NCBI GenBank assembly: GCA_039619475.1
Contig: CM077116.1
Span: 302,968,464-303,032,463, forward strand
Direction: 5' to 3'
Source of the DNA: Icerya purchasi
Taxonomy: Eukaryota; Arthropoda; Insecta; Hemiptera; Monophlebidae
DNA: 64,000 nucleotides
The position numbers and the translations under genes are program-made. How positions within the stretch are numbered: the first letter of the stretch is position 1; every line of letters begins with the position of its first letter. The notes below the pieces were generated by a model, which was given only the letters and a program-made list of their open reading frames with translations, was not told the DNA's origin and searched no databases. Below, piece by piece: positions 21,996 through 56,231 of this stretch.

Positions 21996-22087
21996 CTAGT
22001 TAGTATGCAGAAGTATTGACACACTTAGGGAACTGCATTTATAGCATGATAACAAGCGACTATAGTCAGTTCCAAATATAGTCGTGC

Positions 22088-23296
22088 GTGTTGGCGTCAC
22101 ATGAATATTTAACTGGCGAGCTAATCAACGTAAGTCTAGTCGTCCTGGTTCGCCTCGCCACGGATAACCGGAATTGGCGCTTTGTGCCTAGGAAAATTCC
22201 TATCCTGTCCCTTATTTCTCTCCGTCTTAGTTCATTTTGGCCGTATACAATTTCCTTTAATAGTCTGCCTTATTTTTCCTTTAACTTCAGCGATCTCTGC
22301 CATCCTCCCAGAGTATTTATTTCGTCTACACTTGCAAAATCTCTCCCTCCAGCTGTAATTAAACAGGAATTCCACAGTATTGTCAATTCTCTCTTCCCTT
22401 CTCATGTTACCATTTTCACTGATGGTTCTAAGGGGCCTGATGGGGTTGGTGCTTCTTTTATTCTTCCAGACTATAACTTCTCTGAATCCTTCTGTCTTCC
22501 TTCTTTCTGTTCCATATTTACAGCCGAGCTAATGGCTATTTTACGTTCCATTATTTTTATCTCCTCCAATCGTCTTTCTTCCCAGTTCCTGATCATATCC
22601 GACTCCATGAGTGCTCTTCAAGCCATCTCTTCTCCTCTTCCTAATCATTCCTGTGATTTTTCTATTCTCCGCATACGTTCTCTCATTTGGACTCTCTCTT
22701 CTCTCCATGGAATCCATGTTGACTTGCTGTGGGTTCCTGGTCATTCTGGCATCTCAGGTAATGAGAAGGCTGATTCTTTGGCTCGGGTTGCTGCTTCTTC
22801 TTCTACATTCTTCTTCAAAAAAATCCCATCCTCTAATCTCTTGCCTTTGTGTAAACATTTCCATCTCAGATTTTGGTCGAATATGTACCCTTCCTCCTTT
22901 TCTAATTGTCGCTCCTTTTATCTGTCAGTTCAGCCTAATCTTCCTTCAAATCCTTGGTTCCTTCTGTTTCCTTCACTTCCTCGCTCTGTTGTTGTCTCCA
23001 TTGTGCGTTTGCGCTTAAACCATTCCTTGCTACCTTCCTCACGCTTTCGCCTCTCGTTGACCTCTTCCCCATGTTGTCCTCTCCATTCAAACGATGCGGT
23101 TGTTTGTGACACCGATCACGTGTTCTTTGAGTGCTCTGCTCTTTCGGTGGAGCGCTCGGCTCTATATTCCCACTTGCTTGGGCTGGGGCTTCCTGCTCCT
23201 TTTTGTGCTCGTTATATCCTGTCTTTTCCTTCTACACTTATTATCCCCTCCATTGTTTCCTTCTTATTAGCGATAGCTGATCGCCTCACTGTATAA
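22088..23296 (+). CDS. 5'-truncated non-LTR retrotransposon ORF2, RNase H domain intact (family A)
   Basis: The open frame encodes the C-terminal part of a LINE polyprotein. An RNase H1-type domain spans about residues 106-240, with all four acidic residues: D112 in TDGS, E147 in TAELMA, D172 in ISDSMSAL and D229 in GNEKADSLA. It ends with the WVPGHSGISG loop. A tail domain follows (about 300-350), with IVRLRLNHS, a Cys-Cys pair and DTDHVFFEC, probably zinc-binding. In the live element, RNase H strips template RNA after reverse transcription in the nucleus. The endonuclease and RT are missing, and the first ~50 codons may be pre-insertion flank, so the start codon is not meaningful. The frame is undamaged and followed by a clean poly-A tail, so insertion is fairly recent. 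Two decayed copies of the same family lie at 1-665 and 47,735-48,010. Confidence 0.8.
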   Translation: MLASHEYLTGELINVSLVVLVRLATDNRNWRFVPRKIPILSLISLRLSSFWPYTISFNSLPYFSFNFSDLCHPPRVFISSTLAKSLPPAVIKQEFHSIVNSLFPSHVTIFTDGSKGPDGVGASFILPDYNFSESFCLPSFCSIFTAELMAILRSIIFISSNRLSSQFLIISDSMSALQAISSPLPNHSCDFSILRIRSLIWTLSSLHGIHVDLLWVPGHSGISGNEKADSLARVAASSSTFFFKKIPSSNLLPLCKHFHLRFWSNMYPSSFSNCRSFYLSVQPNLPSNPWFLLFPSLPRSVVVSIVRLRLNHSLLPSSRFRLSLTSSPCCPLHSNDAVVCDTDHVFFECSALSVERSALYSHLLGLGLPAPFCARYILSFPSTLIIPSIVSFLLAIADRLTV

Positions 23297-27198: not shown

Positions 27199-27204
27199 AA
27201 CGGT
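27199..27204. repeat. Left target-site duplication AACGGT
   Basis: AACGGT directly precedes the AG terminus of the large element and is repeated exactly at 44,799-44,804. A 6-bp duplication is the Polinton/Maverick hallmark. Confidence 0.85.
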
Positions 27205-28320
27205 AGTAGTCATTAAATGGGGCGACTGGCCGTTCCGCTAATCCGAACCCCAATTCCTGTCCCGGAAGCGAAAATTCACCCCAGACCGGTAATCCGAACT
27301 CAAAATTCACCCCAATTCATGTCCAGGTGGCCAAAATTCACCCAAGTTTCCCCCGGACGGTTCCCGCTCGTTTCCGATAAACCGAACGTCCAAACAGTGA
27401 CCAGAGGTCAATAAACTACCCAAAGTGTTATTCGGGGGCGCAAGTAACCCCAATTAGTGTCCAGGTGCTGAAAGAGTTCCCCCCAGTTCCCTAAATTTCT
27501 GCGAAATTCCCTCGTACGCGTCCCGCTCGTTTCCGATAAACCGATCCGATTATTAATTAACATAAGTATATTAATTAATGTCCGAAAGTAACCCAAGTCT
27601 CCGCTGACCCCGCCAGTACTGCTATGGTACTGCAATTTCTTTTTCAAAATTCAGGGGCCTAAGTATGAAAATTCCAAAATTTAACCCCAATATATTATTT
27701 AAAGCGTAAATCTAACCCAACACCTCCGTTACACCTCTCACACGTATATTTCGTTCTCGCGCACGCTCCGGTCGCCGTCGCGAAAGCGCACACGCCGATC
27801 CCACGCATATTCCGATCTCCGCCGCGATATCACACCCACACACACACACACGCGCTCCGTTCCCAATACCGCGTTTTATTTTTTATAAAATTAACTTAAG
27901 TATAATTTTTTTATTTTCCCGATTCCCCGATCTTACTGCCATATGCCAAGACGCACGTCCCGATCCCGCGCATATATCTAACATAACGTTCTCCGCCGCG
28001 AAAGCACACACGCCGATCCCCCGCACGTGTCGTCCGTTTACGCTGCTCCAATTTTTTTTAATTATTATTTTTTTCACATAATAACCCAATTCCTGCTCTG
28101 TTGTCTAAACCTAGCCGGTTATCCAAAACATTTACAAATTAACAAATCAATTATTTCTATAGTCTAAAATAGCCTTACTCTCTTTACCCCTTCCACCCTC
28201 TTTACCGATCGATTCCGCTGTTTTAATATCGAATATATCGTTCTATTTACTTTTACTACGACCACCAAACCTCCGATCGACGCTCCCGACGCCTCCATCA
28301 TTTCATATTGAGAGGTAATT
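27205..28320. promoter_or_regulatory. Left terminal region with subterminal direct repeats
   Basis: GC-richer than the rest of the element and without a gene. A 24-bp unit (core GCTCGTTTCCGATAAACCGA) occurs exactly at 27,362-27,385 and 27,521-27,544. CCCCAATT(C/A)(A/G)TGTCCAGGTG occurs at 27,310-27,329 and 27,448-27,467, and AAATTCACCC occurs several times. In protein-primed linear elements the termini hold the replication origin and the integrase sites; assigning that role here is inference. Confidence 0.6.
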
Positions 28321-28329
28321 ATTTTTTTA

Positions 28330-28872
28330 TGTGACCGCTATGAATGCACACCGTCCATTCCCGCACACCCATCTGCTGTCGTTAGTTTCCATACCGTTCA
28401 TAATAACTTTTATTCAACTCCAAGTATTATGGAATTATTCCAATTATATATTTTCTACACTTCCGATCATTTCTTCTGACCGTTCATAATATTTTTATTT
28501 TCCTCCGGTTCTAAAAATAAATCCTACAATGTCTTCAACGCGATGAATGCGCACACATCTTCTGCAGTTAGTTTCCATATCGATCTTAATAATTTTTCGA
28601 GCCTAAATATTATAGAAATAGCCGAAGTATATTTTTTTCGTTTCTGATCATTTCTTCCGACCATTCATAATATTTTTATTTTTCTCCGGTTTTAAAAATA
28701 AATCCTACAATGTCTTCAAAGCGATGAATGTGCACATACATGCCGTCGTTAGTTCCCATACCGATCATAATAACTTTTTTCAACTCCAAGTATTATGGAA
28801 TTATTCTAACTATATTTTTTTTTTTTCGCTTCCGATCGTTTCTCCCGAACGTTCATAATTTTTTTCCAGACA
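28330..28872. repeat. Three diverged tandem units of about 150-210 bp (left arm)
   Basis: Units start near 28,330, 28,541 and 28,722. They share GATGAATGCGCACAC-like, GTTAGTTTCCATACCG, TATTATGGAATTATTC and CGTTCATAATATTTTTATTT segments. Further partial copies lie at about 30,139-30,310 and 32,370-32,470, before each gene leader. The function is unknown; repeated placement upstream of genes suggests a regulatory or packaging role. Confidence 0.7.
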
Positions 28873-30390
28873 TATGTATTCAAAAATGAAATCGAGTATA
28901 ATTTTATTTAACACGGTTTCATAATTTCCCTCTCCATCACCTATTCATCCTACACAAATTACAATTCTTTCATAATATATGTTCTAGACCCAGTCAAACA
29001 ATCAACTCTCGCAGAAGTGTAGACGTTGCATCCAACACCCATTTTACTATCAATTATTGTATATTATTGTTAGATTATTTTTCCAAAAAGTCTTTTGAAA
29101 TTTTTTCCGTTCGTACATTTTTTTTTTTTTTTTATTTGCATGACATCCATTTCCATGCATACACGTTTCCCTAACAATTATAATATGTTTTATTTATTTT
29201 TCAACTCCTCACAGACTTACATACACGCCATATTGTCACACTCACAGATAGGTTCCTTATTAATCGTGACCATTTTTTTTTTTTTTTTTGTATTATCCGC
29301 GGGAGCATATCACATCAGACCCACACATATACCACACACAGTTATTATATTTAATTTTTAATTATCGATCTTTAATTATTTTTACTGCTATTATTTTTCT
29401 GACACATTCACCCCGTCTTACATACTTTACATCTTTTAACATTTTGATAGAGAAAATCTCAGGGCACTAAATAATTTTTATCAACATCGTAACTAAGTTT
29501 AATATTATACACATCTCAGTATAATTATTAAACGAAGGAACTATTATTTTCATTGACGATATTGTTGCTACAAACATTAATCGTCCTTTTCCAGGTATAG
29601 TCAACCTCTTCATGTATTCGTCTCGTCTTTCTATCAACCTTTGACCGCTCAATACTCCCCCGCTATTTACCGTTATTCGCTAGAGGAATATTTTTTTAGA
29701 CTCGTTCAAATACACACATGCACATAAAAAAATCGACATCAACGTCATCGAACACTGATCTCGACATTTCCAAGAAATTCAATCGCTGCTCCACAGTCTA
29801 AGATGTCTCCGCCCGCCTCACCAGTCGTTTGTAACATTATTGAAGCGCCTGTCATGTATCGTTATTTACGACCTTTTACAACATACAAATTCACGACATG
29901 TATACACCTTTTCTAGAAAGCATGGTGAAAATGGACAATCTCTCCCGATGAAAACCAGCTTGAATGATGTAACGTTATTTCATTCATTTTGCAGAAGGTT
30001 AATTTAAGGCGTCCATGCACCTTTTCTACTAATAAATAAGCAAATGTAACCTTTAAACCTTTCTACCTTTTTGCAATCAATTTACTGATTGTACATACTT
30101 TTTATATTTTTTTCCACATACTCCTTGATCGTCACAAACACCACAAAAGCGCACCATCCATTCGCACACACTCATCTGCTACCGTTAGATCTCATATCAT
30201 TCATAATAATTTTTTCGATTCTATTAGTTTAAGAATATTTCATTTTTTTTTGTTGTTTTTTTCTAACTGTAACATTTTTTTTTTTTTTTTTGAAATCTTT
30301 CGTATTATATTTTTTCTCCCATATGGCTGTCACGTAGTCGTAGCGAAAAATGCTCCGTTCATAACCTTGCATGTATGTTGCCTTGCATGT
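28873..30390. other. No gene seen (left arm)
   Basis: AT-rich sequence with T-runs. Frames of 60-90 codons (for example 29,095-29,361 plus and 29,467-29,652 minus) are Phe-rich or unrecognised and lack start-context or termination signals like those of the two main genes. The end contains a partial tandem-unit copy. Confidence 0.5.
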
Positions 30391-30700
30391 TGCCATACCG
30401 ATCTATTAGATCGTGCGACAATGTTATTGAGTCTGCTGAAACAGGATCTTCCTCTTCATATCTTCTGTAGAAAACGGTTTACATGTACACACCTACACTC
30501 AAACACACATATCTTCATCTCCCCTTGACGATGTCTTTCAAACACCTCTATAACCAAAGGAATGTGGTTTTTCTGGTACAACCCTCCCTTTTCAAAGGCG
30601 AGCATCGAGGTAGATTGTTGAACGGATCTGATCGTGCAGGCAGTATTAGTTTTATGTTAAACGTGTTCATTTTGTAGAATCTGTGTTCTTCACGCGTTAT
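30391..30700 (+). promoter_or_regulatory. Shared leader module A, upstream of the 334-codon gene
   Basis: This ~300-bp stretch is closely similar to 32,527-32,850 upstream of the second gene. The strongest block, around 30,560-30,670, includes CAACCCTCCCTTTTCAAAGG and AACGGATCTGATCGTGCAGG followed by CAGTATTAGT and ATGTTAAACGTGT. It ends with CTTCACGCGTTATTAAAA about 70 bp before the start codon. Between the two modules a short frame is also maintained (LVQPSLFKG...NGSDRAGSIS...MLNV), so it could be a short upstream peptide instead of pure promoter. A duplicated promoter/leader is the simplest reading. Confidence 0.65.
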
Positions 30701-30772
30701 TAAAAATTTACTGTAACGGTAAAAGTAATCATTTTCTATTTTTTAGTAAAAAGTTAAAAATATTAATCAAAC

Positions 30773-31777
30773 ATGAATAACAATACCGAATCGATTGATA
30801 TTAAAGCCGACGAATTTATTCAGAATTCCTTTTCGAGTGATAGCGACTCGCATACGTCTTTTTCACATCCAACACCGCAATATGATGATGGTTATACATC
30901 AGAGGAATCAACATCTTTTGTACGTAAAATCGTTGGTCCAGTATTATTATCAGAACAAGTGGATATAGCGGAATATTTTGTAGATATCAGCGTCCATATA
31001 GATTGTGATTATGGGTTTCGAGTAATTGAACTAGCAATGATTGATATGTCTGGAGGGAAGTGTTTGCATACGCTGTATAAGCCAAGCAGAGCATGGCATG
31101 CATCAAAAATGCCACATTTACAATGTTCTTCAGTGAGTTATTACTTGAAGAACCCTTCATTATTTCCCTGTCGTGAAGAAATATTCATCGCGCGCGATAT
31201 ATTCACGATATTGTCCCAAAAACCGAGGGCTCGCGTATATGTTTTAACAGTATATGCTAAACTTACACTAATGGAACTTAACGAAAAGTCTGAATTGTTG
31301 CGTGATTTAGACTACGAAATCGTTAATATGGATCAAGTCTTTCGATTATCTAGTATTGAGAATCTACATGAAGAGTATTTTGGTATAAGCAATTTGATAA
31401 CTTGTAAACACCATAATGAGAATGATAGTTTTCATTATGCGGTGAAAAACGTTATGGTGATGAAGGCATGGTACGATCATGTCATCCGTCCGCTGAAGCT
31501 TATGAATAATCTCAATATAAATGATTTAAGTCAGTTGTTCATTACAACCACCAAAGAAATGATAATTACGTTATTTCCAAGTTGTGTTGGAGACATTTAT
31601 ACATTTTTACCAGATAGACTAAAACAGGATGATACGATAAAATCACTTCTACCATGTTTTGAACATGAGAATGATGAAGAATATTATTTCGATGACGATA
31701 TATTTCTGCATAGTACTCGAAATTGTATGAAAGTAAAAGATTGTATTGACTGCCAACGTACAATTCGCGCAGATTAA
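30773..31777 (+). CDS. 334-aa protein, diverged DnaQ/RNase H-fold-like family of Polinton-type elements (left arm)
   Basis: Residues 1-50 are acidic and Ser-rich, beginning with the MNNNTES tag shared with the second gene. From about 60 to 240 the layout FRVIELAMID (82-91), RVYVLTVYAK (154-163), YEIVNMDQV, then ITCKHHN (209-215) and AVKNVMVMKAWYDH follows an arthropod protein family that I know from Polinton-like loci, where the matching text is IKELAIYD...VYVKG..K...CxxHN..CAxxNVxxLYxW. That family looks like a 3'-5' exonuclease (RNase H) fold, but here I do not see a complete DEDD set, so it may be catalytically dead. A cysteine cluster closes the protein (C318, C324, C327). Start: the first ATG, in context AAACATGAATAAC, directly after a leader duplicated before the second gene. 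ATTAAA (31,774-31,779) overlaps the stop codon as a possible poly-A signal. Function not known. Confidence 0.75.
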   Translation: MNNNTESIDIKADEFIQNSFSSDSDSHTSFSHPTPQYDDGYTSEESTSFVRKIVGPVLLSEQVDIAEYFVDISVHIDCDYGFRVIELAMIDMSGGKCLHTLYKPSRAWHASKMPHLQCSSVSYYLKNPSLFPCREEIFIARDIFTILSQKPRARVYVLTVYAKLTLMELNEKSELLRDLDYEIVNMDQVFRLSSIENLHEEYFGISNLITCKHHNENDSFHYAVKNVMVMKAWYDHVIRPLKLMNNLNINDLSQLFITTTKEMIITLFPSCVGDIYTFLPDRLKQDDTIKSLLPCFEHENDEEYYFDDDIFLHSTRNCMKVKDCIDCQRTIRAD

Positions 31778-32526
31778 AAATTCATTAATTCGATCGTTTT
31801 TAACAATTTTGTATATTTTTTCTGTATATTTTTGTGTGTATTTGTACATATATATTTTTTTTTCAGACCGTTCGTTTTTATGTTTTCTTTAAAATTTTTT
31901 AAATATATTTTTATACACATGTAAATACTGTTTTGTATATATTTTGTATATATTTTTTCCCTCAATATCTATTCATTCTCATATTGTATATATTTTTGCT
32001 AATTATTTTTTCATCTTTTTCCGATCCTTTCCGATTTCTGTTTATTTAATTTATTTAGCGATCTATCCTTCTCTCCCCCTCTTAACTTAAAGTACTGGTA
32101 ATGACGAAATTTTCAAAAATCTGAACCAGTCGAGTATAATGTATATATAATTATTTAATTTTCGAATATATTTCCACATAATTTGTTCATATCTGTTTAG
32201 ATTAAAAAATTAGATTTTTGTCTGTAATACACCATTTTTTTATTTTTTTTGTGTGTAATAAGCGAATTTAACTGTTATACTTTTTCACGTACATCACGTA
32301 TTTCCGCAGCTGTGAGAGTTTTCATCTGTTTGTAAGATACATCCTCTGACTCTAAATGTTCTCTAAATATTTTTTTTTTGAGCCTAAATATTATAGAAAT
32401 AGCCGAAGTATATTTTTTTCGTTTCTGACCATTTCTTCCGACCGTTCATAATTTTGTATTTTTTCTCCAATATGTATGCTCACTATCGTAGCGTAAATGT
32501 GCGTCGCTCATAACCTTACATACATG
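31778..32526. other. Intergenic AT-rich stretch (left arm)
   Basis: Very AT-rich (TATATATTTTT motifs), non-coding. At about 32,375-32,470 lies a partial copy of the upstream tandem unit (GAGCCTAAATATTATAGAAA ... TTCCGACCGTTCATAAT). Confidence 0.6.
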
Positions 32527-32850
32527 TTGCCATACCGTTGTATTAGATCGTGCAACAATGTTATAGAGTCTGTTGAAACAGGTTCTTCCCTTTCATATCT
32601 TTTGTAGAAACAGACTCACATGTACACACCTACACACACATACACACACATATAACCCAAGGACACCTGCAAACTTCGTTCAGACACACCTGCATCCAAC
32701 TTTCACCAAAGGAATGTGGTTTTTTCTGGTGCAACCCTCCCTTTTCAAAGGCATGCTTCGAGCTCGAATGTCGAACGGATCTGATCGTGCAGGCAGTATT
32801 AGTGTTATGTTAAACGTGTGGAATTTGTTGAAGCTGTGTTCTTCACGCGT
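32527..32850 (+). promoter_or_regulatory. Shared leader module B, upstream of the second gene
   Basis: Paralogue of 30,391-30,700. The AACGGATCTGATCGTGCAGG block and its downstream neighbours are identical or nearly so. Here about 165 bp of pyrimidine-rich sequence separates it from the start codon; it ends in TTTTTTTAG, which looks like an intron polypyrimidine tract and acceptor at about 32,974-32,987. If so, the leader may be spliced onto the coding exon. Confidence 0.6.
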
Positions 32851-33014
32851 TATTAAAATATTCTCAAGAACGATAAAGTCTGTAATTTCCTACGTCTTTT
32901 CTCTTTTTCGTTCGCTCTTTATTTTCTGACTTTTTTCTCTCTTATTGCACGTTATTCTTTTCGCTCTTATTTTCTCTCATTTTTTTAGTATAAATATTAC
33001 AATAATAATCGAAT

Positions 33015-33863
33015 ATGAATAACAATACCGAATCGAATGTCGATAATGTCGCGGATTTCATTCAAAATTTTTTCGTAAATGATAATGATAATGCAATGTT
33101 TCCGGACGATTTTCCAAATATACATATGCCGCCACCACCACCACCAGCAGAAGAAACATCATTACAAGGGCCTTCGTTACATTCATTCTCAGATTTCATT
33201 CCATTGGCTACATCAACACCTTTAGCATCACCGGTAATGTCACAAGATTTGCAAACTCCGTCGTTAACGCAAGTACCTTTGGTACATGATGAAAAAGAAT
33301 ATAGCACAACAATGTTGGAATTACCCAAAGAAATATTTAACCGAAAATCAGTCGTCTATGTTAAAGACCCTAACGATCCAGAAAATAAAAATAGTTTCAT
33401 GTATGCGGTTTTAGCAAAATTTACATCAAAACCGTCATCGATGTGGCAGTACAATATTCTACAGAAAGTATACGATTTCAGCTTTATTCACTTACCGATC
33501 CAATCGCTGGCTGATATTGAAACGTTTGAAAGAATAAACGCTGTATCAATCAACTTATACAAGCTGATAGAAACCGACTATACAGATCAAAGTACATTCA
33601 ACTACAAAATAAAAGTCGTGTACGTCTGACGAAAAAATCACAGTTTGTTAAATCATAAACATCACACAAACATATTATATTGGGGATCTAATGGAAATTA
33701 TCAATTCGCATGGATAAAAAAATTCAGTCGATTGTTGCGGATTCAGTCGCCGAAAGCGAAATTTGTATGCTGGTCATGTCTCGATCCCATGAATACCGAT
33801 TACGAACATGATAATACTCACAGATGTGACGCAGTCAGTTGGCGTAATATGCACTATATGTAA
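33015..33863 (+). pseudogene. 283-codon gene with one in-frame TGA; polymerase-B-associated N-terminal region (left arm)
   Basis: Residues 1-100 are acidic, with a proline run (39-44), and start with the shared MNNNTES...ADFIQN tag. From about 110, the segments VVYVKDPNDPENKNSFMYAV, FSFIHLPIQSLADIETFERI and NAVSINLYKL match the arthropod layout CFxWAVLSAL...NFDGIxFPVKLKDIPKFEKxN-ISVNVY. After a TGA at 33,627-33,629, the same frame continues: NILYWGSNGNYQFAWIKKFS, then a CWSC...H...HRC zinc-type cluster, ending TAA at 33,861. In Polinton-like elements of arthropods this region sits just ahead of the polymerase B exonuclease domain; here the gene stops before it. AATAAA lies 3 bp past the stop (33,867-33,872), so the short form looks like a real gene end. 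The TGA is followed by C (a leaky context) but could simply be a mutated CGA codon. Confidence 0.7.
33627..33629 (+). other. In-frame TGA codon 205 (left arm)
   Basis: TGA followed by CGA splits the second gene into 204 and 78 codons without changing the frame. The same codon is present in the right arm at 38,374-38,376. Either readthrough or loss of a CGA arginine codon by C-to-T change. Confidence 0.8.
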
Positions 33864-33866
33864 TTA

Positions 33867-33872
33867 AATAAA
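33867..33872 (+). terminator. Poly-A signal AATAAA of the second gene (left arm)
   Basis: AATAAA starts three bases after the TAA stop. Such tight packing is typical of viral and large-transposon genes. Mirrored at 38,131-38,136. Confidence 0.6.
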
Positions 33873-34665
33873 GACGTATTTTTCGTATTCATAGATGTAT
33901 TTTTATTTTTCAAAAAATCTTTTTACATTGTTTCATACAAATTAATGTAATCTATATAATATAATAAATATTTTCATACGTATACATTTTTGTTTTTATT
34001 TTCCATAAACTTAAAATTCCAATTTTACTATTGTTGTTAATATATACTAAACTCCAGTTTGTATTAAATCCTCTCGCTCTTTATGTTGAACAGACGAATC
34101 AATATTATTTAACTGTTCAGTTAAGTATGCAGAGTCTTTTTATCTTGCTTAACTTTAAAGATATATGATAGATTCTTTTTTCATTTGACAGTGTAAACGT
34201 TTTCTTCTTTTACAATTTTCTTATGCTTTATCACTATTACAACATTTTTCATCATTTTCTAACTAATTGTAAACATTTTTCCACTATTTTGTAACATGTT
34301 CTTATGTTTTAGGACTTTTTGCCCTATTTTTTTCACCAATTTATACTATTTCGAAGTATTTCATATGACTGAACGCTACTTAAGAAGTTTTTCGATAATT
34401 ATCACCATTCCTCGCAATATTCATATGTTTTAACGCTTTTTACACTATTTTTCACAAATTCATGATATTTCGCTTCATTTCTAATGTTTGAACGACTCAT
34501 ATGCAGTTTTTCGACAATTTTTCACCGTTCATCACTATATTTTTTTATGTTGTATCACCTTTTATGAAGTCTTCATCAAATTTTACCTTCATTCAACAAT
34601 ATTTTCGTTATTGTACCCCTTTGAAGTGTTGTTTTACCCTAAAAGCGAGTGTATATCTAATTTGT
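33873..34665. repeat. Degenerate short repeats, non-coding (left arm)
   Basis: From about 34,195, loosely repeated phrases occur every 30-70 bp (ATGTTTTAACGCTTTTTACA, TTTTTCACAAATTCATGATA, TTTTTCGACAATTTTTCACC). Similar phrases reappear in the spacer at 35,750-35,830. No gene. Confidence 0.55.
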
Positions 34666-34669
34666 TATA

Positions 34670-34915
34670 ATTAAGAAAGAATATAATGTATATTACAAAT
34701 TTCCTTTCCTGGGAGTATGATTGTGTGTGCAGAATAATAAACTCTGGTAAGAAGCAGACTGTATCCACCATCAAGCAGGGTGTGTAAAGCGTGGTAATGA
34801 ACTCTGGCATTGCACACATTGCAAGGTAGTTATGATATGTTTGAGCATAAATTAGTTGTTGTATATCATTCATGTTAGTCATTAAATGTTCACACTGAGA
34901 GATGCAAGGGGGGCG
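34670..34915. repeat. Direct repeat unit, copy 1
   Basis: The segment with AATAATAAACTCTGGTAAGA ... AAATTAGTTGTTGTAT ... CACACTGAGAGATGC is a diverged copy of 35,500-35,740. A frame of 82 codons on the minus strand crosses it but is not kept open in copy 2, so I do not call a gene. Confidence 0.65.
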
Positions 34916-35109
34916 TCATCATATGAACCATTACGATTTTTATAATTATAATATACACTAAGCATGTATGTATTACAACGACCACATCAACTCTGTTAAG
35001 GACGGTAATGTTTGGAGGTAGATAGTGAACCGTTACATTAGAAGAGGAACATGGCTACATACATGGAAACATCATTAGCGATATTACATCACATGTATGT
35101 CATCAAATT

Positions 35110-35390
35110 TAACTAAAATATTGCGTCCATAGTAAAAAATGCGAGGATTTTTCCTAAGAGGTTAAATTTTATGTCTAAGATGGCGAATATAATAAAATTG
35201 ATGCGATTTTAGCTGAAGATGGGGTATTTTACACTAAAATCGTTGTTTTACACCTAAAGTGAGATTATTTGGGGAGTTAAACGGTCTTTTTTCATATAAA
35301 ATTTGATGTTTTTTCTAAATGTGGCTATTTTTTTGTCCTAAATGGAGTAATTTCTACATGAATGGTACTTTTTAGACTGACCTATATACT
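35110..35390. repeat. Degenerate ~30-bp minisatellite (left arm)
   Basis: Tandem variants of a CCTAAAGTGAGATTATTT / TCTAAATGTGGCTATTTT / CCTAAATGGAGTAATTTC pattern, about 8-9 units, all diverged. Confidence 0.55.
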
Positions 35391-35499
35391 TCTTGATGTG
35401 ATATTCCATTCATTGTGAAGTTATGCTTTGAAAGGATTTGTGTCTGGTTGTGGGAAGTTTCCGAACTTTTCTGATGCATCGATTATAGTATAATAGTTG

Positions 35500-35740
35500 T
35501 TGTGTGTTAGTGAGTTGATGGTGTTTGGTTGGGAATAATAAATAGGGGTAAGAGGTGAAGTGTACTACATCAAGCAAGGAGAGTACTGTTTGATAATTAA
35601 CTCTATCATTTAAACACATTGCAAGTCAGTTATAATATGTTAAGTCAAAATTAGTTGTTGTATCTCGTTCAGGATTTTACATTAAACGATCACACTGAGA
35701 GACGCGATGGACTCGTCATCATGAAGATCCATCCAATCAT
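35500..35740. repeat. Direct repeat unit, copy 2 (mostly in the spacer)
   Basis: Diverged copy of 34,670-34,915 (GAATAATAAATAGGGGTAAG ... TTAGTTGTTGTATCTCG ... CACACTGAGAGACGC). Because it starts at the arm edge and continues into unpaired sequence, the spacer's left half looks like the natural continuation of the parent element beyond the palindrome breakpoint. Confidence 0.65.
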
Positions 35741-36497
35741 TACATTATTTTTCACTAATTTGTAATCACCATTTTTTTATGTTTTGAACGAGTCTTATAA
35801 TGTTTTTTGATAATTTTCATGGTACAAGGTTCATAATGTAAAGTAATTTTAATTATTTCAACAGTCTTTACACACAAATAAAGCAATATATCTTAAGCAC
35901 ACTCAACATAATACAAATTTTTACAAACAGAAGTAAACAACGGATTTACTTAGAAATTTTAATAAAACTTAAGAATCATATTATATATGATATTGCTTGT
36001 TTTTTCAATCAATGATCCAAACTAGCAGGTTTAGAATTATATCAGACCTCGAGTAAAAACCACAAATTATTTAATGTGTACATCTTTGCTACTTTTTACC
36101 TTATATGTGTGAATGTACATATCTACACATATTCATATATATCCAGATATATACATATATCCATAAATATCTACATACATATATATATCTACATATATGC
36201 ATATATATCTACATATACACATATATATCTACATATACACATATATATCTACATATATACATATATCCATAAATATCTACATACATATATATATATACAT
36301 ATACACATATATATCTACATATACACATATATATCTACATATACACATATATATCTACATATATACATATATCCATAAATATCTACATACATATATATAT
36401 CTACATATACACATATATATCTACATATACACATATATATCTACATATATACATATATCCATAAATATCTACATACATATATATATCTACATATATG
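35506..36497. other. Central spacer of the palindrome
   Basis: 992 bp that have no mirror copy. The left ~570 bp are AT-rich element-like sequence with no gene. The right ~390 bp are a minisatellite that ends exactly at the start of the right arm. Confidence 0.85.
36112..36496. repeat. ATATATCTACATATACAC minisatellite with a higher-order unit
   Basis: Basic unit about 20 bp (ATATATCTACATATACACAT). Every ~90-107 bp a variant ATATATCCATAAATATCTAC-CATACAT appears (about 36,147, 36,253, 36,361 and 36,449), giving a higher-order period. Frames through it are Tyr-Ile-Thr-His repeats and not genes. The right palindrome arm begins directly at its end. Confidence 0.85.
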
Positions 36498-38130
36498 ACA
36501 CAACAACTATTATACTATAATCGATGCATCAGAAAAGTTCGGAAACTTCCCACAACCAGACACAAATCCTTTCAAAGCATAACTTCACAATGAATGGAAT
36601 ATCACATCAAGAAGTATATAGGTCAGTCTAAAAAGTACCATTCATGTAGAAATTACTCCATTTAGGACAAAAAAATAGCCACATTTAGAAAAAACATCAA
36701 ATTTTATATGAAAAAAGACCGTTTAACTCCCCAAATAATCTCACTTTAGGTGTAAAACAACGATTTTAGTGTAAAATACCCCATCTTCAGCTAAAATCGC
36801 ATCAATTTTATTATATTCGCCATCTTAGACATAAAATTTAACCTCTTAGGAAAAATCCTCGCATTTTTTACTATGGACGCAATATTTTAGTTAAATTTGA
36901 TGACATACATGTGATGTAATATCGCTAATGATGTTTCCATGTATGTAGCCATGTTCCTCTTCTAATGTAACGGTTCACTATCTACCTCCAAACATTACCG
37001 TCCTTAACAGAGTTGATGTGGTCGTTGTAATACATACATGCTTAGTGTATATTATAATTATAAAAATCGTAATGGTTCATATGATGACGCCCCCCTTGCA
37101 TCTCTCAGTGTGAACATTTAATGACTAACATGAATGATATACAACAACTAATTTATGCTCAAACATATCATAACTACCTTGCAATGTGTGCAATGCCAGA
37201 GTTCATTACCACGCTTTACACACCCTGCTTGATGGTGGATACAGTCTGCTTCTTACCAGAGTTTATTATTCTGCACACACAATCATACTCCCAGGAAAGG
37301 AAATTTGTAATATACATTATATTCTTTCTTAATTATAACAAATTAGATATACACTCGCTTTTAGGGTAAAACAACACTTCAAAGGGGTACAATAACGAAA
37401 ATATTGTTGAATGAAGGTAAAATTTGATGAAGACTTCATAAAAGGTGATACAACATAAAAAAATATAGTGATGAACGGTGAAAAATTGTCGAAAAACTGC
37501 ATATGAGTCGTTCAAACATTAGAAATGAAGCGAAATATCATGAATTTGTGAAAAATAGTGTAAAAAGCGTTAAAACATATGAATATTGCGAGGAATGGTG
37601 ATAATTATCGAAAAACTTCTTAAGTAGCGTTCAGTCATATGAAATGCTTCGAAATAGTATAAATTGGTGAAAAAAATAGGGCAAAAAGTCCTAAAACATA
37701 AGAACATGTTACAAAATAGTGGAAAAATGTTTACAATTAGTTAGAAAATGATGAAAAATGTTGTAATAGTGATAAAGCATAAGAAAATTGTAAAAGAAGA
37801 AAACGTTTACACTGTCAAATGAAAAAAGAATCTATCATATATCTTTAAAGTTAAGCAAGATAAAAAGACTCTGCATACTTAACTGAACAGTTAAATAATA
37901 TTGATTCGTCTGTTCAACATAAAGAGCGAGAGGATTTAATACAAACTGGAGTTTAGTATATATTAACAACAATAGTAAAATTGGAATTTTAAGTTTATGG
38001 AAAATAAAAACAAAAATGTATACGTATGAAAATATTTATTATATTATATAGATTACATTAATTTGTATGAAACAATGTAAAAAGATTTTTTGAAAAATAA
38101 AAATACATCTATGAATACGAAAAATACGTC

Positions 38131-38136
38131 TTTATT
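38131..38136 (-). terminator. Poly-A signal of the second gene (right arm)
   Basis: Mirror of 33,867-33,872; reads AATAAA on the minus strand. Confidence 0.6.
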
Positions 38137-38139
38137 TAA

Positions 38140-38988
38140 TTACATATAGTGCATATTACGCCAACTGACTGCGTCACATCTGTGAGTATTATCATGTTCG
38201 TAATCGGTATTCATGGGATCGAGACATGACCAGCATACAAATTTCGCTTTCGGCGACTGAATCCGCAACAATCGACTGAATTTTTTTATCCATGCGAATT
38301 GATAATTTCCATTAGATCCCCAATATAATATGTTTGTGTGATGTTTATGATTTAACAAACTGTGATTTTTTCGTCAGACGTACACGACTTTTATTTTGTA
38401 GTTGAATGTACTTTGATCTGTATAGTCGGTTTCTATCAGCTTGTATAAGTTGATTGATACAGCGTTTATTCTTTCAAACGTTTCAATATCAGCCAGCGAT
38501 TGGATCGGTAAGTGAATAAAGCTGAAATCGTATACTTTCTGTAGAATATTGTACTGCCACATCGATGACGGTTTTGATGTAAATTTTGCTAAAACCGCAT
38601 ACATGAAACTATTTTTATTTTCTGGATCGTTAGGGTCTTTAACATAGACGACTGATTTTCGGTTAAATATTTCTTTGGGTAATTCCAACATTGTTGTGCT
38701 ATATTCTTTTTCATCATGTACCAAAGGTACTTGCGTTAACGACGGAGTTTGCAAATCTTGTGACATTACCGGTGATGCTAAAGGTGTTGATGTAGCCAAT
38801 GGAATGAAATCTGAGAATGAATGTAGCGAAGGCCCTTGTAATGATGTTTCTTCTGCTGGTGGTGGTGGTGGCGGCATATGTATATTTGGAAAATCGTCCG
38901 GAAACATTGCATTATCATTATCATTTACGAAAAAATTTTGAATGAAATCCGCGACATTATCGACATTCGATTCGGTATTGTTATTCAT
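38140..38988 (-). pseudogene. 283-codon gene with in-frame TGA, right-arm copy
   Basis: Mirror copy of 33,015-33,863 with the same protein and the same in-frame TGA at 38,374-38,376. One synonymous difference is present (38,826 versus 33,177, within a Ser-Leu-His triplet). The same domain reading applies: acidic and proline-rich N-terminus, the SFMYAV and DIETFERI segments, and, after the TGA, a CWSC...HRC cluster. Shared damage means the TGA predates the arm duplication or has been spread by gene conversion. Confidence 0.7.
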
Positions 38989-39152
38989 ATTCGATTATTA
39001 TTGTAATATTTATACTAAAAAAATGAGAGAAAATAAGAGCGAAAAGAATAACGTGCAATAAGAGAGAAAAAAGTCAGAAAATAAAGAGCGAACGAAAAAG
39101 AGAAAAGACGTAGGAAATTACAGACTTTATCGTTCTTGAGAATATTTTAATA

Positions 39153-39476
39153 ACGCGTGAAGAACACAGCTTCAACAAATTCCACACGTTTAACATAACA
39201 CTAATACTGCCTGCACGATCAGATCCGTTCGACATTCGAGCTCGAAGCATGCCTTTGAAAAGGGAGGGTTGCACCAGAAAAAACCACATTCCTTTGGTGA
39301 AAGTTGGATGCAGGTGTGTCTGAACGAAGTTTGCAGGTGTCCTTGGGTTATATGTGTGTGTATGTGTGTGTAGGTGTGTACATGTGAGTCTGTTTCTACA
39401 AAAGATATGAAAGGGAAGAACCTGTTTCAACAGACTCTATAACATTGTTGCACGATCTAATACAACGGTATGGCAA
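39153..39476 (-). promoter_or_regulatory. Leader module B, right arm
   Basis: Mirror of 32,527-32,850 upstream of the right-arm second gene, with no difference noticed. Confidence 0.6.
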
Positions 39477-40225
39477 CATGTATGTAAGGTTATGAGCGAC
39501 GCACATTTACGCTACGATAGTGAGCATACATATTGGAGAAAAAATACAAAATTATGAACGGTCGGAAGAAATGGTCAGAAACGAAAAAAATATACTTCGG
39601 CTATTTCTATAATATTTAGGCTCAAAAAAAAAATATTTAGAGAACATTTAGAGTCAGAGGATGTATCTTACAAACAGATGAAAACTCTCACAGCTGCGGA
39701 AATACGTGATGTACGTGAAAAAGTATAACAGTTAAATTCGCTTATTACACACAAAAAAAATAAAAAAATGGTGTATTACAGACAAAAATCTAATTTTTTA
39801 ATCTAAACAGATATGAACAAATTATGTGGAAATATATTCGAAAATTAAATAATTATATATACATTATACTCGACTGGTTCAGATTTTTGAAAATTTCGTC
39901 ATTACCAGTACTTTAAGTTAAGAGGGGGAGAGAAGGATAGATCGCTAAATAAATTAAATAAACAGAAATCGGAAAGGATCGGAAAAAGATGAAAAAATAA
40001 TTAGCAAAAATATATACAATATGAGAATGAATAGATATTGAGGGAAAAAATATATACAAAATATATACAAAACAGTATTTACATGTGTATAAAAATATAT
40101 TTAAAAAATTTTAAAGAAAACATAAAAACGAACGGTCTGAAAAAAAAATATATATGTACAAATACACACAAAAATATACAGAAAAAATATACAAAATTGT
40201 TAAAAACGATCGAATTAATGAATTT

Positions 40226-41230
40226 TTAATCTGCGCGAATTGTACGTTGGCAGTCAATACAATCTTTTACTTTCATACAATTTCGAGTACTATGCAGAAA
40301 TATATCGTCATCGAAATAATATTCTTCATCATTCTCATGTTCAAAACATGGTAGAAGTGATTTTATCGTATCATCCTGTTTTAGTCTATCTGGTAAAAAT
40401 GTATAAATGTCTCCAACACAACTTGGAAATAACGTAATTATCATTTCTTTGGTGGTTGTAATGAACAACTGACTTAAATCATTTATATTGAGATTATTCA
40501 TAAGCTTCAGCGGACGGATGACATGATCGTACCATGCCTTCATCACCATAACGTTTTTCACCGCATAATGAAAACTATCATTCTCATTATGGTGTTTACA
40601 AGTTATCAAATTGCTTATACCAAAATACTCTTCATGTAGATTCTCAATACTAGATAATCGAAAGACTTGATCCATATTAACGATTTCGTAGTCTAAATCA
40701 CGCAACAATTCAGACTTTTCGTTAAGTTCCATTAGTGTAAGTTTAGCATATACTGTTAAAACATATACGCGAGCCCTCGGTTTTTGGGACAATATCGTGA
40801 ATATATCGCGCGCGATGAATATTTCTTCACGACAGGGAAATAATGAAGGGTTCTTCAAGTAATAACTCACTGAAGAACATTGTAAATGTGGCATTTTTGA
40901 TGCATGCCATGCTCTGCTTGGCTTATACAGCGTATGCAAACACTTCCCTCCAGACATATCAATCATTGCTAGTTCAATTACTCGAAACCCATAATCACAA
41001 TCTATATGGACGCTGATATCTACAAAATATTCCGCTATATCCACTTGTTCTGATAATAATACTGGACCAACGATTTTACGTACAAAAGATGTTGATTCCT
41101 CTGATGTATAACCATCATCATATTGCGGTGTTGGATGTGAAAAAGACGTATGCGAGTCGCTATCACTCGAAAAGGAATTCTGAATAAATTCGTCGGCTTT
41201 AATATCAATCGATTCGGTATTGTTATTCAT
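40226..41230 (-). CDS. 334-aa protein, right-arm copy
   Basis: Mirror copy of 30,773-31,777 encoding an identical 334-residue protein: acidic MNNNTES tag, IELAMID and YVLTVYAK segments, CKHHN motif and C-terminal cysteines. It remains fully open in both arms while the other gene carries a stop. This may reflect selection in a mobile parent, or merely the short time since duplication. Expression of both copies would be convergent toward the palindrome centre, giving the chance of opposing transcripts. Function unknown; the RNase H-fold relation is inferred from layout. Confidence 0.75.
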   Translation of the reverse strand: MNNNTESIDIKADEFIQNSFSSDSDSHTSFSHPTPQYDDGYTSEESTSFVRKIVGPVLLSEQVDIAEYFVDISVHIDCDYGFRVIELAMIDMSGGKCLHTLYKPSRAWHASKMPHLQCSSVSYYLKNPSLFPCREEIFIARDIFTILSQKPRARVYVLTVYAKLTLMELNEKSELLRDLDYEIVNMDQVFRLSSIENLHEEYFGISNLITCKHHNENDSFHYAVKNVMVMKAWYDHVIRPLKLMNNLNINDLSQLFITTTKEMIITLFPSCVGDIYTFLPDRLKQDDTIKSLLPCFEHENDEEYYFDDDIFLHSTRNCMKVKDCIDCQRTIRAD

Positions 41231-41302
41231 GTTTGATTAATATTTTTAACTTTTTACTAAAAAATAGAAAATGATTACTTTTACCGTTACAGTAAATTTT
41301 TA

Positions 41303-41612
41303 ATAACGCGTGAAGAACACAGATTCTACAAAATGAACACGTTTAACATAAAACTAATACTGCCTGCACGATCAGATCCGTTCAACAATCTACCTCGATG
41401 CTCGCCTTTGAAAAGGGAGGGTTGTACCAGAAAAACCACATTCCTTTGGTTATAGAGGTGTTTGAAAGACATCGTCAAGGGGAGATGAAGATATGTGTGT
41501 TTGAGTGTAGGTGTGTACATGTAAACCGTTTTCTACAGAAGATATGAAGAGGAAGATCCTGTTTCAGCAGACTCAATAACATTGTCGCACGATCTAATAG
41601 ATCGGTATGGCA
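41303..41612 (-). promoter_or_regulatory. Leader module A, right arm
   Basis: Mirror of 30,391-30,700 upstream of the right-arm 334-codon gene. Confidence 0.6.
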
Positions 41613-43130
41613 ACATGCAAGGCAACATACATGCAAGGTTATGAACGGAGCATTTTTCGCTACGACTACGTGACAGCCATATGGGAGAAAAAATATAATA
41701 CGAAAGATTTCAAAAAAAAAAAAAAAAATGTTACAGTTAGAAAAAAACAACAAAAAAAAATGAAATATTCTTAAACTAATAGAATCGAAAAAATTATTAT
41801 GAATGATATGAGATCTAACGGTAGCAGATGAGTGTGTGCGAATGGATGGTGCGCTTTTGTGGTGTTTGTGACGATCAAGGAGTATGTGGAAAAAAATATA
41901 AAAAGTATGTACAATCAGTAAATTGATTGCAAAAAGGTAGAAAGGTTTAAAGGTTACATTTGCTTATTTATTAGTAGAAAAGGTGCATGGACGCCTTAAA
42001 TTAACCTTCTGCAAAATGAATGAAATAACGTTACATCATTCAAGCTGGTTTTCATCGGGAGAGATTGTCCATTTTCACCATGCTTTCTAGAAAAGGTGTA
42101 TACATGTCGTGAATTTGTATGTTGTAAAAGGTCGTAAATAACGATACATGACAGGCGCTTCAATAATGTTACAAACGACTGGTGAGGCGGGCGGAGACAT
42201 CTTAGACTGTGGAGCAGCGATTGAATTTCTTGGAAATGTCGAGATCAGTGTTCGATGACGTTGATGTCGATTTTTTTATGTGCATGTGTGTATTTGAACG
42301 AGTCTAAAAAAATATTCCTCTAGCGAATAACGGTAAATAGCGGGGGAGTATTGAGCGGTCAAAGGTTGATAGAAAGACGAGACGAATACATGAAGAGGTT
42401 GACTATACCTGGAAAAGGACGATTAATGTTTGTAGCAACAATATCGTCAATGAAAATAATAGTTCCTTCGTTTAATAATTATACTGAGATGTGTATAATA
42501 TTAAACTTAGTTACGATGTTGATAAAAATTATTTAGTGCCCTGAGATTTTCTCTATCAAAATGTTAAAAGATGTAAAGTATGTAAGACGGGGTGAATGTG
42601 TCAGAAAAATAATAGCAGTAAAAATAATTAAAGATCGATAATTAAAAATTAAATATAATAACTGTGTGTGGTATATGTGTGGGTCTGATGTGATATGCTC
42701 CCGCGGATAATACAAAAAAAAAAAAAAAAATGGTCACGATTAATAAGGAACCTATCTGTGAGTGTGACAATATGGCGTGTATGTAAGTCTGTGAGGAGTT
42801 GAAAAATAAATAAAACATATTATAATTGTTAGGGAAACGTGTATGCATGGAAATGGATGTCATGCAAATAAAAAAAAAAAAAAAATGTACGAACGGAAAA
42901 AATTTCAAAAGACTTTTTGGAAAAATAATCTAACAATAATATACAATAATTGATAGTAAAATGGGTGTTGGATGCAACGTCTACACTTCTGCGAGAGTTG
43001 ATTGTTTGACTGGGTCTAGAACATATATTATGAAAGAATTGTAATTTGTGTAGGATGAATAGGTGATGGAGAGGGAAATTATGAAACCGTGTTAAATAAA
43101 ATTATACTCGATTTCATTTTTGAATACATA

Positions 43131-43673
43131 TGTCTGGAAAAAAATTATGAACGTTCGGGAGAAACGATCGGAAGCGAAAAAAAAAAAATATAGTTAGAAT
43201 AATTCCATAATACTTGGAGTTGAAAAAAGTTATTATGATCGGTATGGGAACTAACGACGGCATGTATGTGCACATTCATCGCTTTGAAGACATTGTAGGA
43301 TTTATTTTTAAAACCGGAGAAAAATAAAAATATTATGAATGGTCGGAAGAAATGATCAGAAACGAAAAAAATATACTTCGGCTATTTCTATAATATTTAG
43401 GCTCGAAAAATTATTAAGATCGATATGGAAACTAACTGCAGAAGATGTGTGCGCATTCATCGCGTTGAAGACATTGTAGGATTTATTTTTAGAACCGGAG
43501 GAAAATAAAAATATTATGAACGGTCAGAAGAAATGATCGGAAGTGTAGAAAATATATAATTGGAATAATTCCATAATACTTGGAGTTGAATAAAAGTTAT
43601 TATGAACGGTATGGAAACTAACGACAGCAGATGGGTGTGCGGGAATGGACGGTGTGCATTCATAGCGGTCACA
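43131..43673. repeat. Three diverged tandem units (right arm)
   Basis: Mirror of 28,330-28,872, same unit structure. Confidence 0.7.
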
Positions 43674-43682
43674 TAAAAAAAT

Positions 43683-44798
43683 AATTACCTCTCAATATGA
43701 AATGATGGAGGCGTCGGGAGCGTCGATCGGAGGTTTGGTGGTCGTAGTAAAAGTAAATAGAACGATATATTCGATATTAAAACAGCGGAATCGATCGGTA
43801 AAGAGGGTGGAAGGGGTAAAGAGAGTAAGGCTATTTTAGACTATAGAAATAATTGATTTGTTAATTTGTAAATGTTTTGGATAACCGGCTAGGTTTAGAC
43901 AACAGAGCAGGAATTGGGCTATTATGTGAAAAAAATAATAATTAAAAAAAATTGGAGCAGCGTAAACGGACGACACGTGCGGGGGATCGGCGTGTGTGCT
44001 TTCGCGGCAGAGAACGTTATGTTAGATATATGCGCGGGATCGGGACGTGCGTTTTGGCATATGGCAGTAAGATCGGGGAATCGGGAAAATAAAAAAATTA
44101 TACTTAAGTTAATTTTATAAAAAATAAAACGCGGTATTGGGAACGGAGCGCGTGTGTGTGTGTGTGGGTGTGATATCGCGGCGGAGATCGGAATATGCGT
44201 GGGATCGGCGTGTGCGCTTTCGCGACGGCGACCGGAGCGTGCGCGAGAACGAAATATACGTGTGAGAGGTGTAACGGAGGTGTTGGGTTAGATTTACGCT
44301 TTAAATAATATATTGGGGTTAAATTTTGGAATTTTCATACTTAGGCCCCTGAATTTTGAAAAAGAAATTGCAGTACCATAGCAGTACTGGCGGGGTCAGC
44401 GGAGACTTGGGTTACTTTCGGACATTAATTAATATACTTATGTTAATTAATAATCGGATCGGTTTATCGGAAACGAGCGGGACGCGTACGAGGGAATTTC
44501 GCAGAAATTTAGGGAACTGGGGGGAACTCTTTCAGCACCTGGACACTAATTGGGGTTACTTGCGCCCCCGAATAACACTTTGGGTAGTTTATTGACCTCT
44601 GGTCACTGTTTGGACGTTCGGTTTATCGGAAACGAGCGGGAACCGTCCGGGGGAAACTTGGGTGAATTTTGGCCACCTGGACATGAATTGGGGTGAATTT
44701 TGAGTTCGGATTACCGGTCTGGGGTGAATTTTCGCTTCCGGGACAGGAATTGGGGTTCGGATTAGCGGAACGGCCAGTCGCCCCATTTAATGACTACT
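43683..44798. promoter_or_regulatory. Right terminal region with subterminal direct repeats
   Basis: Mirror of 27,205-28,320. It contains two of the three arm differences (43,919 and 44,053). Ends in ...CATTTAATGACTACT next to the AACGGT duplication. Confidence 0.6.
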
Positions 44799-44804
44799 AA
44801 CGGT
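44799..44804. repeat. Right target-site duplication AACGGT
   Basis: Exact copy of 27,199-27,204. The sequence that follows (TTTTTCCACTTTTCCC) differs from the left-arm outer flank read in reverse, so the palindrome ends here. Confidence 0.85.
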
Positions 44805-56100: not shown

Positions 56101-56231
56101 CGTTAAATAAGAAATTATTTGACTGCAAAGGAAAAACTGGCGTTTCGTGGACCGAAGAAAGAAAACAAAGACACAGTGAAAGAATGAAAGCAGTATGGAA
56201 AGAGAGGAAGAAGAATGGCAGAACCAGTTGA
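53182..56231 (+). pseudogene. Nearly full-length RTE-like non-LTR retrotransposon ORF (APE endonuclease plus reverse transcriptase)
   Basis: One polyprotein. The apurinic-like endonuclease spans about 53,290-54,020: FATVNINSL, IQETR with the catalytic Glu, LLGDLNAQLG with Asp/Asn, and SDHYLSKI with the His. A linker follows, then RT in the 535-codon frame from 54,624: NNYRGISLLP (77-86), VDFKKSYDSVDR with D148, RQGDGLSPLLF (206-216), CLAFADDLAI with the FADD Asp pair (258-259), then thumb and a basic tail. Endonuclease nicks the target and RT copies the RNA from it. Damage: TGA at 53,437-53,439, TGA at 54,268-54,270, and a frameshift between about 54,570 and 54,590. Both TGAs sit where arginine (CGA) fits, so CpG decay is likely. 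A 3' UTR of only ~45 bp and a microsatellite tail fit the RTE clade, which is my inference. Confidence 0.85.

Follow-up and report, generated by a model that had tools for sequence, protein, structure and literature searches.

A 64,000-nucleotide stretch of the Icerya purchasi genome (the window, to whose positions plain coordinates refer) carries at 27205-44798 a mobile element that is almost entirely one giant palindrome, with the ends of a Polinton (Maverick) and two genes of its own in each arm. The element is one member of a large family of palindromes with Polinton ends and their own genes, which a search of the same assembly has established. We consider it somewhat more probable than all other accounts together that these elements form a non-autonomous palindromic satellite of the Polinton family, the symmetry of which is renewed in each mobilisation cycle, probably by fold-back replication. 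The features of the element are listed here; C1 and C2 denote contigs of the assembly, and L and P numbers denote loci and elements.

27205-44798: whole element, 17,594 bp, mirrored coordinates adding up to 72,003
27199-27204: left target-site duplication (TSD), AACGGT
44799-44804: right TSD, AACGGT
27205-35505, + strand: left palindrome arm, 8,301 bp, mismatched at 5 positions when aligned with the reverse-complemented right arm
36498-44798, - strand: right palindrome arm, 8,301 bp
35506-36497: spacer, 992 bp
35506-36099, + strand: non-microsatellite part of the spacer, on one side of the centre here and on both sides in the related element P11
36100-36497: ATATAC-type microsatellite array, the probable ancestral centre of the palindrome
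27205-28025, + strand: terminal region (arm positions 1-821), starting AGTAGTC and common to ordinary Polintons; 89% identical to L047, 88% to L049, 87% to L050
43978-44798, - strand: mirror copy of the terminal region
28409-28820, + strand: tandem repeats of ~183 bp in the left arm (repeat families D7, D11, D12), with mirror copies at 43183-43594
30568-30705, + strand: segment upstream of open reading frame 1 (ORF1), 90% identical to 32721-32858 (repeat family D9)
32721-32858, + strand: segment upstream of ORF2, 90% identical to 30568-30705
30773-31777, + strand: ORF1, 334 aa
40226-41230, - strand: identical second copy of ORF1, right arm
33015-33863, + strand: ORF2, split into 204 aa and 77 aa by an in-frame TGA at 33627-33629
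38140-38988, - strand: second copy of ORF2, with the same break

A palindrome with Polinton ends

Over their 8,301 positions the two arms differ by five mismatches and no indel (99.94% identity), which is far beyond chance at this length, and the inverted repeats make up 94% of the element. The ends read AGTAGTC...GACTACT, with AACGGT immediately outside each of them. The first-pass annotation of this DNA, which was made from the letters alone, had described the 8,301-bp arms, the mirror sum, AG...CT ends with a perfect 6-bp duplication and a small gene set carried twice, and all of this was borne out, the gene set being ORF1 and ORF2 in each arm. The mismatches lie at arm offsets 745, 789, 879, 5972 and 7152 (counted from 0) and are all transitions. 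When they were polarised against relatives, several of which agreed with neither word, the left arm proved to have changed at 5972 and 7152 and the right arm at 745 and 789, and offset 879 was not polarisable. Because the changes fall in either arm, both arms look real and appear to have mutated separately since insertion. The divergence amounts to 3.0e-4 per site and arm (5 differences over 2 × 8,301 bp), and with an insect mutation rate near 3e-9 this corresponds to about 1e5 generations.

Vertebrate Mavericks are described, in the available text of PMC8097293, as having an (AGT)2//(ACT)2 end motif, 6-bp TSDs and, when intact, terminal inverted repeats (TIRs) of 46-1,447 bp with a mean of 402. 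A search for end-sharing relatives with core genes, as the first-pass annotation had suggested, was successful at three loci, each read from one end only. These loci, L047, L049 and L050, have essentially nothing in common with the window element beyond the terminal 816-821 bp (87-89% identity) and short pieces, L050 additionally sharing the ORF2 region. L047 encodes a double jelly-roll (DJR) capsid protein (PF21738, expectation value E 4e-69), a PLA2-like domain (E 6e-13), an A32-like ATPase (E 3e-10) and an rve integrase (E 5e-10), with a chromodomain match below the cut-off, and L050 also encodes an rve integrase (E 2e-12). L049 has PolB-like frames, one piece of which matches PF03175 weakly (E 0.008, below the cut-off) and the larger piece not at all; in a tblastx comparison they align with the PolB of L040 (PF03175, E 7e-12), which sits in an element with other ends. 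Beside the Polinton integrase gene of L050, a long frame at L050:6657-9998 (-) has, judged by eye, a copia-type look.

The window element itself has the 6-bp TSD and the termini of Polintons and lacks their PolB, integrase, capsid and ATPase: no polymerase domain was found in the four proteins scanned, neither a retroviral-type integrase domain nor a DJR capsid or packaging ATPase in the scanned ORFs, and there is no other ATG frame of at least 150 aa. With termini common to elements that carry core genes, it is best read as a non-autonomous Polinton derivative. Since its ends and TSD are shared with full Polintons, it would be mobilised by these in trans. The earlier statement that the core genes are gone is correct for these domains, with the qualification that ORF2 is a derivative of the PolB N-terminus (see below). 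An Rfam scan of the window returned no score at gathering level.

The palindromic family in the genome

The assembly searched comprises 1,103,370,081 bases in 41 contigs; the available text of its description reports 1,103.38 Mb, a scaffold N50 of 601.66 Mb and two chromosomes (PMC11183206), and the words 'Maverick' and 'Polinton' have no occurrence in the main text of that paper. The first 1,000 bp of the element, used as query, returned 82 matches (40 scored of 2,038 candidates), from which opposite ends lying 15-37 kb from each other could be matched into 14 pairs (P0-P13, P0 being the window element). Twelve ends without a partner in the list, the partners of which are possibly among the unscored candidates, were left out of the TSD count; one of them, at C1:272636067, nonetheless has paired ORF1 copies. 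All 14 paired elements have inverted, near-identical ends, and a perfect 6-bp TSD was found in 13 of them, the window element included. For P0-P10, the ends of which were read over 2.3-2.5 kb, the inverted copies are 99.5-100% identical in ten elements and ~98% identical over the outer 1.8 kb in P10, and the 6-bp TSDs are equal in 10 of the 11. P11, P12 and P13 are flanked by GAGAGG, TACGTT and TTCATA, respectively, each equal on both sides, and have inverted matches spanning ~8-10 kb, either as a single main piece or as two, with identities of 98.6% (P11), 99.2% and 96.0% (P12), and 99.0% and 97.2% (P13). The sole element lacking a TSD is P5 (L012 and L011, C2:341937990-341961110). Its two flanks, each read over 1.5 kb, are inverted copies of one another at 99.9%, so host DNA has been joined into this palindrome.

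A second line of evidence comes from the genes. The ORF1 protein gave 3,531 first-look places in the genome, and each of the 120 that were scored has an E of 1.2e-218 or lower; 111 of these copies have no internal stop. As many as 96 of the 120 form convergent pairs, 48 in number and 5.7-15 kb apart (median 10.1 kb), where random placement of 120 points yields 0.09 such pairs on average. With the L047 capsid protein as query, 784 places came up, and the 100 scored genes (85-100% identical to the query, and not necessarily all in elements with these ends) include five convergent pairs, or 10 genes of 100, spaced 2.9-5.6 kb apart. Both scored sets are the best-scoring copies, and the shares may differ among all copies. 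Because ORF1 is paired in 96 of 120 cases and the capsid gene in 10 of 100, palindromy is specific to a class of elements and is not a habit of the assembly, a few capsid-bearing pairs existing too. These pairs, at C2:115857601, 367633590, 107093727, 253542052 and 105530472, are probably separate palindromes of capsid-bearing Polintons; two of them contain stop codons, and the stop types are the same in both copies.

Long-read assembly is known to create false palindromes, and one arm might have been doubled here when a read or contig folded back on itself; P5, with its inverted flanks and missing TSD, is the one examined case that is possibly artefactual. For the family we regard this explanation as very unlikely, to the point of being barely tenable, as TSDs lie at both ends in 13 of 14 elements, the arms differ by transitions, and the scored capsid genes are mostly single in the same assembly, which was made from PacBio HiFi reads with hifiasm and Hi-C (available text of PMC11183206). 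Further palindromic copies, for which the first-pass annotation had proposed a search, are thus plentiful, with 14 end-paired elements including this one and 48 ORF1 pairs. Its view that the element represents a non-autonomous palindromic form of Polinton is supported, except that this is not a lone case but a member of a large family. Among the titles and abstract starts of open-licence papers, which offer weak evidence of absence, we found no report of palindromic or very-long-TIR Polintons.

Genes and centre of the palindromes

Two classes of palindrome were distinguished: type A, with ORF1 and ORF2, and type B, with a gene of 326 aa (P13). The two genes of each type A arm are preceded by upstream segments that are 90% identical, and they encode a similar leader of 26 residues; the segments at 30568-30705 and 32721-32858 may perhaps represent a shared promoter. 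No relative of ORF1 was detected outside the family: it produced matches at chance level only against Pfam, PHROGs and, by sequence, the PDB, and a large protein collection returned 507 candidates with none at E ≤ 0.001. Among the frames of seven loci and the window, its sole matches besides itself were to ORF2-carrying frames, at E 0.01-0.13, and the two genes have the short N-terminal leader in common.

The two pieces of the window ORF2 have no relatives among viral contigs. The open ORF2 copy of L031 aligns with residues 156-305 of the L040 PolB (29% identity, E 9e-12, in a single comparison) and with L049 (E 7e-07), and the matching part of PolB sits upstream of the polymerase domain. By these alignments, ORF2 is descended from the N-terminal extension of a Polinton PolB. 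The in-frame TGA interrupts ORF2 in both arms of the window element; among the relatives with an uninterrupted frame are L031 and L048. The ratio of nonsynonymous to synonymous divergence (dN/dS) is 0.17, at dS 0.23-0.24, for ORF2 of the palindromic L031 and L048 against L050. For the 326-aa gene it is 0.26 between P13 and L046 and 0.48-0.52 against the distant L047 relative, and ORF1 pairs among type A palindromes mostly give 0.3-0.6 at low divergence. By these values ORF2 is under purifying selection and is maintained as a protein, as is the 326-aa gene; the same probably holds for ORF1.

The spacer is not a random loop. In P11 the arm runs past position 8301 through the spacer segment of the window on both sides, up to an ATATAC-type microsatellite. 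This centre is a one-way microsatellite of several hundred bp, which ruled out a first assignment of P11 as spacer-less. In the window element only one side still has the segment and the microsatellite, and ~590 bp are therefore missing from the other. An ATATAC-type motif marks the centre of P11 and lies in or next to the centre of both L046 and L048. L043 is without the microsatellite and part of one side, and in L031/L032, L033, L042, L043, L044, L048 and L051 the type A arm extends beyond position 8301 directly into the spacer segment found in the window. The whole looks like an old common centre that has been trimmed.

Composite elements were also found. L046 belongs to a probable chimera, the right half of which is of the 326-aa-gene type, 93-95% identical to P13. 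L046 starts with the type A spacer segment; upstream, at C2:341795818, lies a type A ORF1 at the distance expected for a type A arm. In this chimera, read without its left end and TSD, a type A half on the left would meet a type B half on the right at a microsatellite centre of the kind that both have. Dimer-like arrays with ORF1 in + - + - order occur at three places, C1:178781294 (P9), C1:48920952 and C2:341047905, and in P9 the inner arms meet and have lost their ends. P10 was rejected as a 36.6-kb PolB palindrome; it is a type A palindrome split near C1:357691169 by another inverted element, one that starts AGTAGATAG and carries PolB in inverted copies (7.2 kb at 97.8%). One end of this inner element was read, and from symmetry only its length would be near 19 kb. 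Near its centre lies a mini-element of ~295 bp (L040:9399-9693, AGTAGTC...GACTACT) with inverted, not direct, flanks and no TSD. At the right end of P12 (L034:6010-9900), the terminal ~1.8-1.9 kb are present twice in tandem.

Outside the palindrome, the window contains a 401-aa open frame for a mariner-type transposase at 59558-60763 (-; PF01359, PF13358 and a helix-turn-helix domain), and frames of a non-long-terminal-repeat (non-LTR) retrotransposon at 53440-56231 (+), with an endonuclease part below the Pfam cut-off and a reverse transcriptase (PF00078, E 3e-39). A 404-aa frame with an RNase H domain at 22082-23296 (+) is probably a piece of a non-LTR retrotransposon.

Origin of the arm symmetry

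To compare arms within and between elements, we used arm positions 3923-6900 in 12 sequences from 8 elements, with both sides read in four; arms aligned over >2.7 kb were kept, and L038 and L050 were left out. In this deep part the left and right arms differ by 0.03% in P0, 0.00% in P11 and 0.07% in P12, and the two inner copies of P9 by 0.00%, compared with 0.5-3.6% between elements. Because deep arms differ less within than between elements, symmetry has been re-established within each copy's own history and has not been preserved unchanged from a founder. A tree of the terminal 830 bp places the two ends of an element as sisters for 13 of the 14 elements. Bit scores are equal in both arms for 41 of the 48 ORF1 pairs (10,000 shuffles gave a mean of 1.6 and a maximum of 7), and all four stop-containing pairs have a stop of the same type in both arms, compared by type.

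Long, near-identical inverted arms readily undergo gene conversion, as in Y-chromosome palindromes, and the low distances within elements and the stops present in both arms would follow equally if conversion had equalised the arms in the chromosome after insertion, mobilisation merely copying the palindrome. We hold this main rival to be rather unlikely. In the window element the five differences lie scattered and have built up in both arms, and conversion does not keep all copies equal, because the ends of P10 are ~2% different and 7 of the 48 ORF1 pairs are unequal in score.

Identical arms would likewise be accounted for if each palindrome arose anew from an asymmetric master by template switching during replication, as a symmetric recombinant of the adenovirus type. 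Arm contents do differ among type A, type B (P13), the inner PolB element of P10 and the five capsid-gene pairs, and palindromes have therefore arisen more than once. The type A copies, however, share one centre, with the same spacer segment past position 8301, so that this class looks descended from a single palindromic founder, and no asymmetric type A master was identified among the part of the copies read. Template switching thus explains the origin of the different classes and not the shared type A centre, and as a general account we find it distinctly improbable.

The reading we prefer, a satellite with symmetry renewed at each mobilisation, could work as follows. Proteins of full Polintons would replicate the satellite by protein-primed strand displacement and then integrate it. 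The displaced single strand of the palindrome would fold into a hairpin of ~8 kb with one protein-primed end, and copying round this hairpin, or mismatch repair inside it, would equalise the arms before integration. After insertion the arms would diverge and the centre would be trimmed by deletion, here with the loss of ~590 bp to one side of the microsatellite. ORF2, as a stand-alone N-terminal fragment of PolB, may recruit the helper's replication machinery or compete for it. The hairpin step as the cause of the equal arms is what we infer; the term snap-back derivative, used in the first-pass annotation, is accordingly plausible, and the firmer point is the renewal of arm symmetry within each element's own history.

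Several observations weigh against this interpretation. No replication intermediate has been seen, and arm-to-arm conversion in the chromosome would equalise arms too. Sister ends by themselves would be seen with any Polinton TIR, the deep arm being the telling part, and P3 is the 1 element of 14 that does not group both of its ends in the terminal tree. Equal ORF1 scores hint at identical arms and do not prove them, and 24 of the 120 scored ORF1 copies are unpaired in the scored set, one of them sitting in a chimera. Identities over the whole arm, in spans that include repeats and microsatellite, fall below those of the deep stretch (P11 98.6%, P12 99.2/96.0%, P13 99.0/97.2%, P10 ends ~98%), and P5 has inverted flanks in place of a TSD. 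The single-sequence AlphaFold model of ORF1 is worthless and gives no fold (mean predicted local distance difference test score 30.5). Some ORF1 pairs reach dN/dS 0.88-1.01, noisy at low divergence, and ORF2 pairs among type A palindromes range from 0 to 1.56, also at low divergence.

A bolder version, which we put forward tentatively and regard as doubtful on balance, is that of a self-perpetuating lineage of palindromic satellite Polintons. The replicating form would be a half-element with a hairpin turn at the microsatellite centre, and each cycle would yield a symmetric dimer. A/B heterodimers, tetramers and TSD-less insertions with inverted flanks would be by-products, and the conserved, free-standing PolB N-terminal protein would hijack the helper polymerase.

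Palindromes arise from protein-primed strand-displacement replication in the symmetric recombinants of adenovirus and in snap-back defective genomes; these are transient laboratory products and are not known to form a heritable genomic family. Our literature search, over titles and abstract starts of open-licence papers, turned up no paper on either. With Polintons/Mavericks, including the adintovirus-like ones, the family has in common the AGTAGT...ACTACT ends, the 6-bp TSD, a similar size and ends found on core-gene elements, and it differs in its 94% of inverted repeats and in the missing integrase, capsid, ATPase and polymerase domain. Foldback elements have a 9-bp TSD. The Foldback/Galileo elements of Drosophila are similar in that long TIRs can dominate a non-autonomous copy, contain tandem repeats and grow by inverted duplication of inner sequence; the TSD here is 6 bp, not 7 or 9. 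Galileo belongs to the P-superfamily; its flanking duplications are 7 bp long and its TIRs in D. mojavensis measure 18-1,250 bp, and the available text makes no mention of genes in both arms (PMC3573991). Teratorn differs in being a piggyBac/herpesvirus element, 41-182 kb long, that has 18-bp TIRs and, next to long inverted repeats, a unique region (available text of PMC6431247). Both are structural parallels, neither being, as far as these texts describe them, a Polinton-type element made up to 94% of inverted repeats (PMC3573991, PMC6431247).

A heritable family of giant palindromes, near-symmetric in each copy, in a genome where most of the scored capsid genes are single, provides a natural record of the replication of such elements. 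It offers a case of a virus-like transposon with a gene-carrying satellite of its own, and it shows that multi-kilobase near-perfect palindromes, usually considered a threat to chromosome stability, can amplify in an animal genome.

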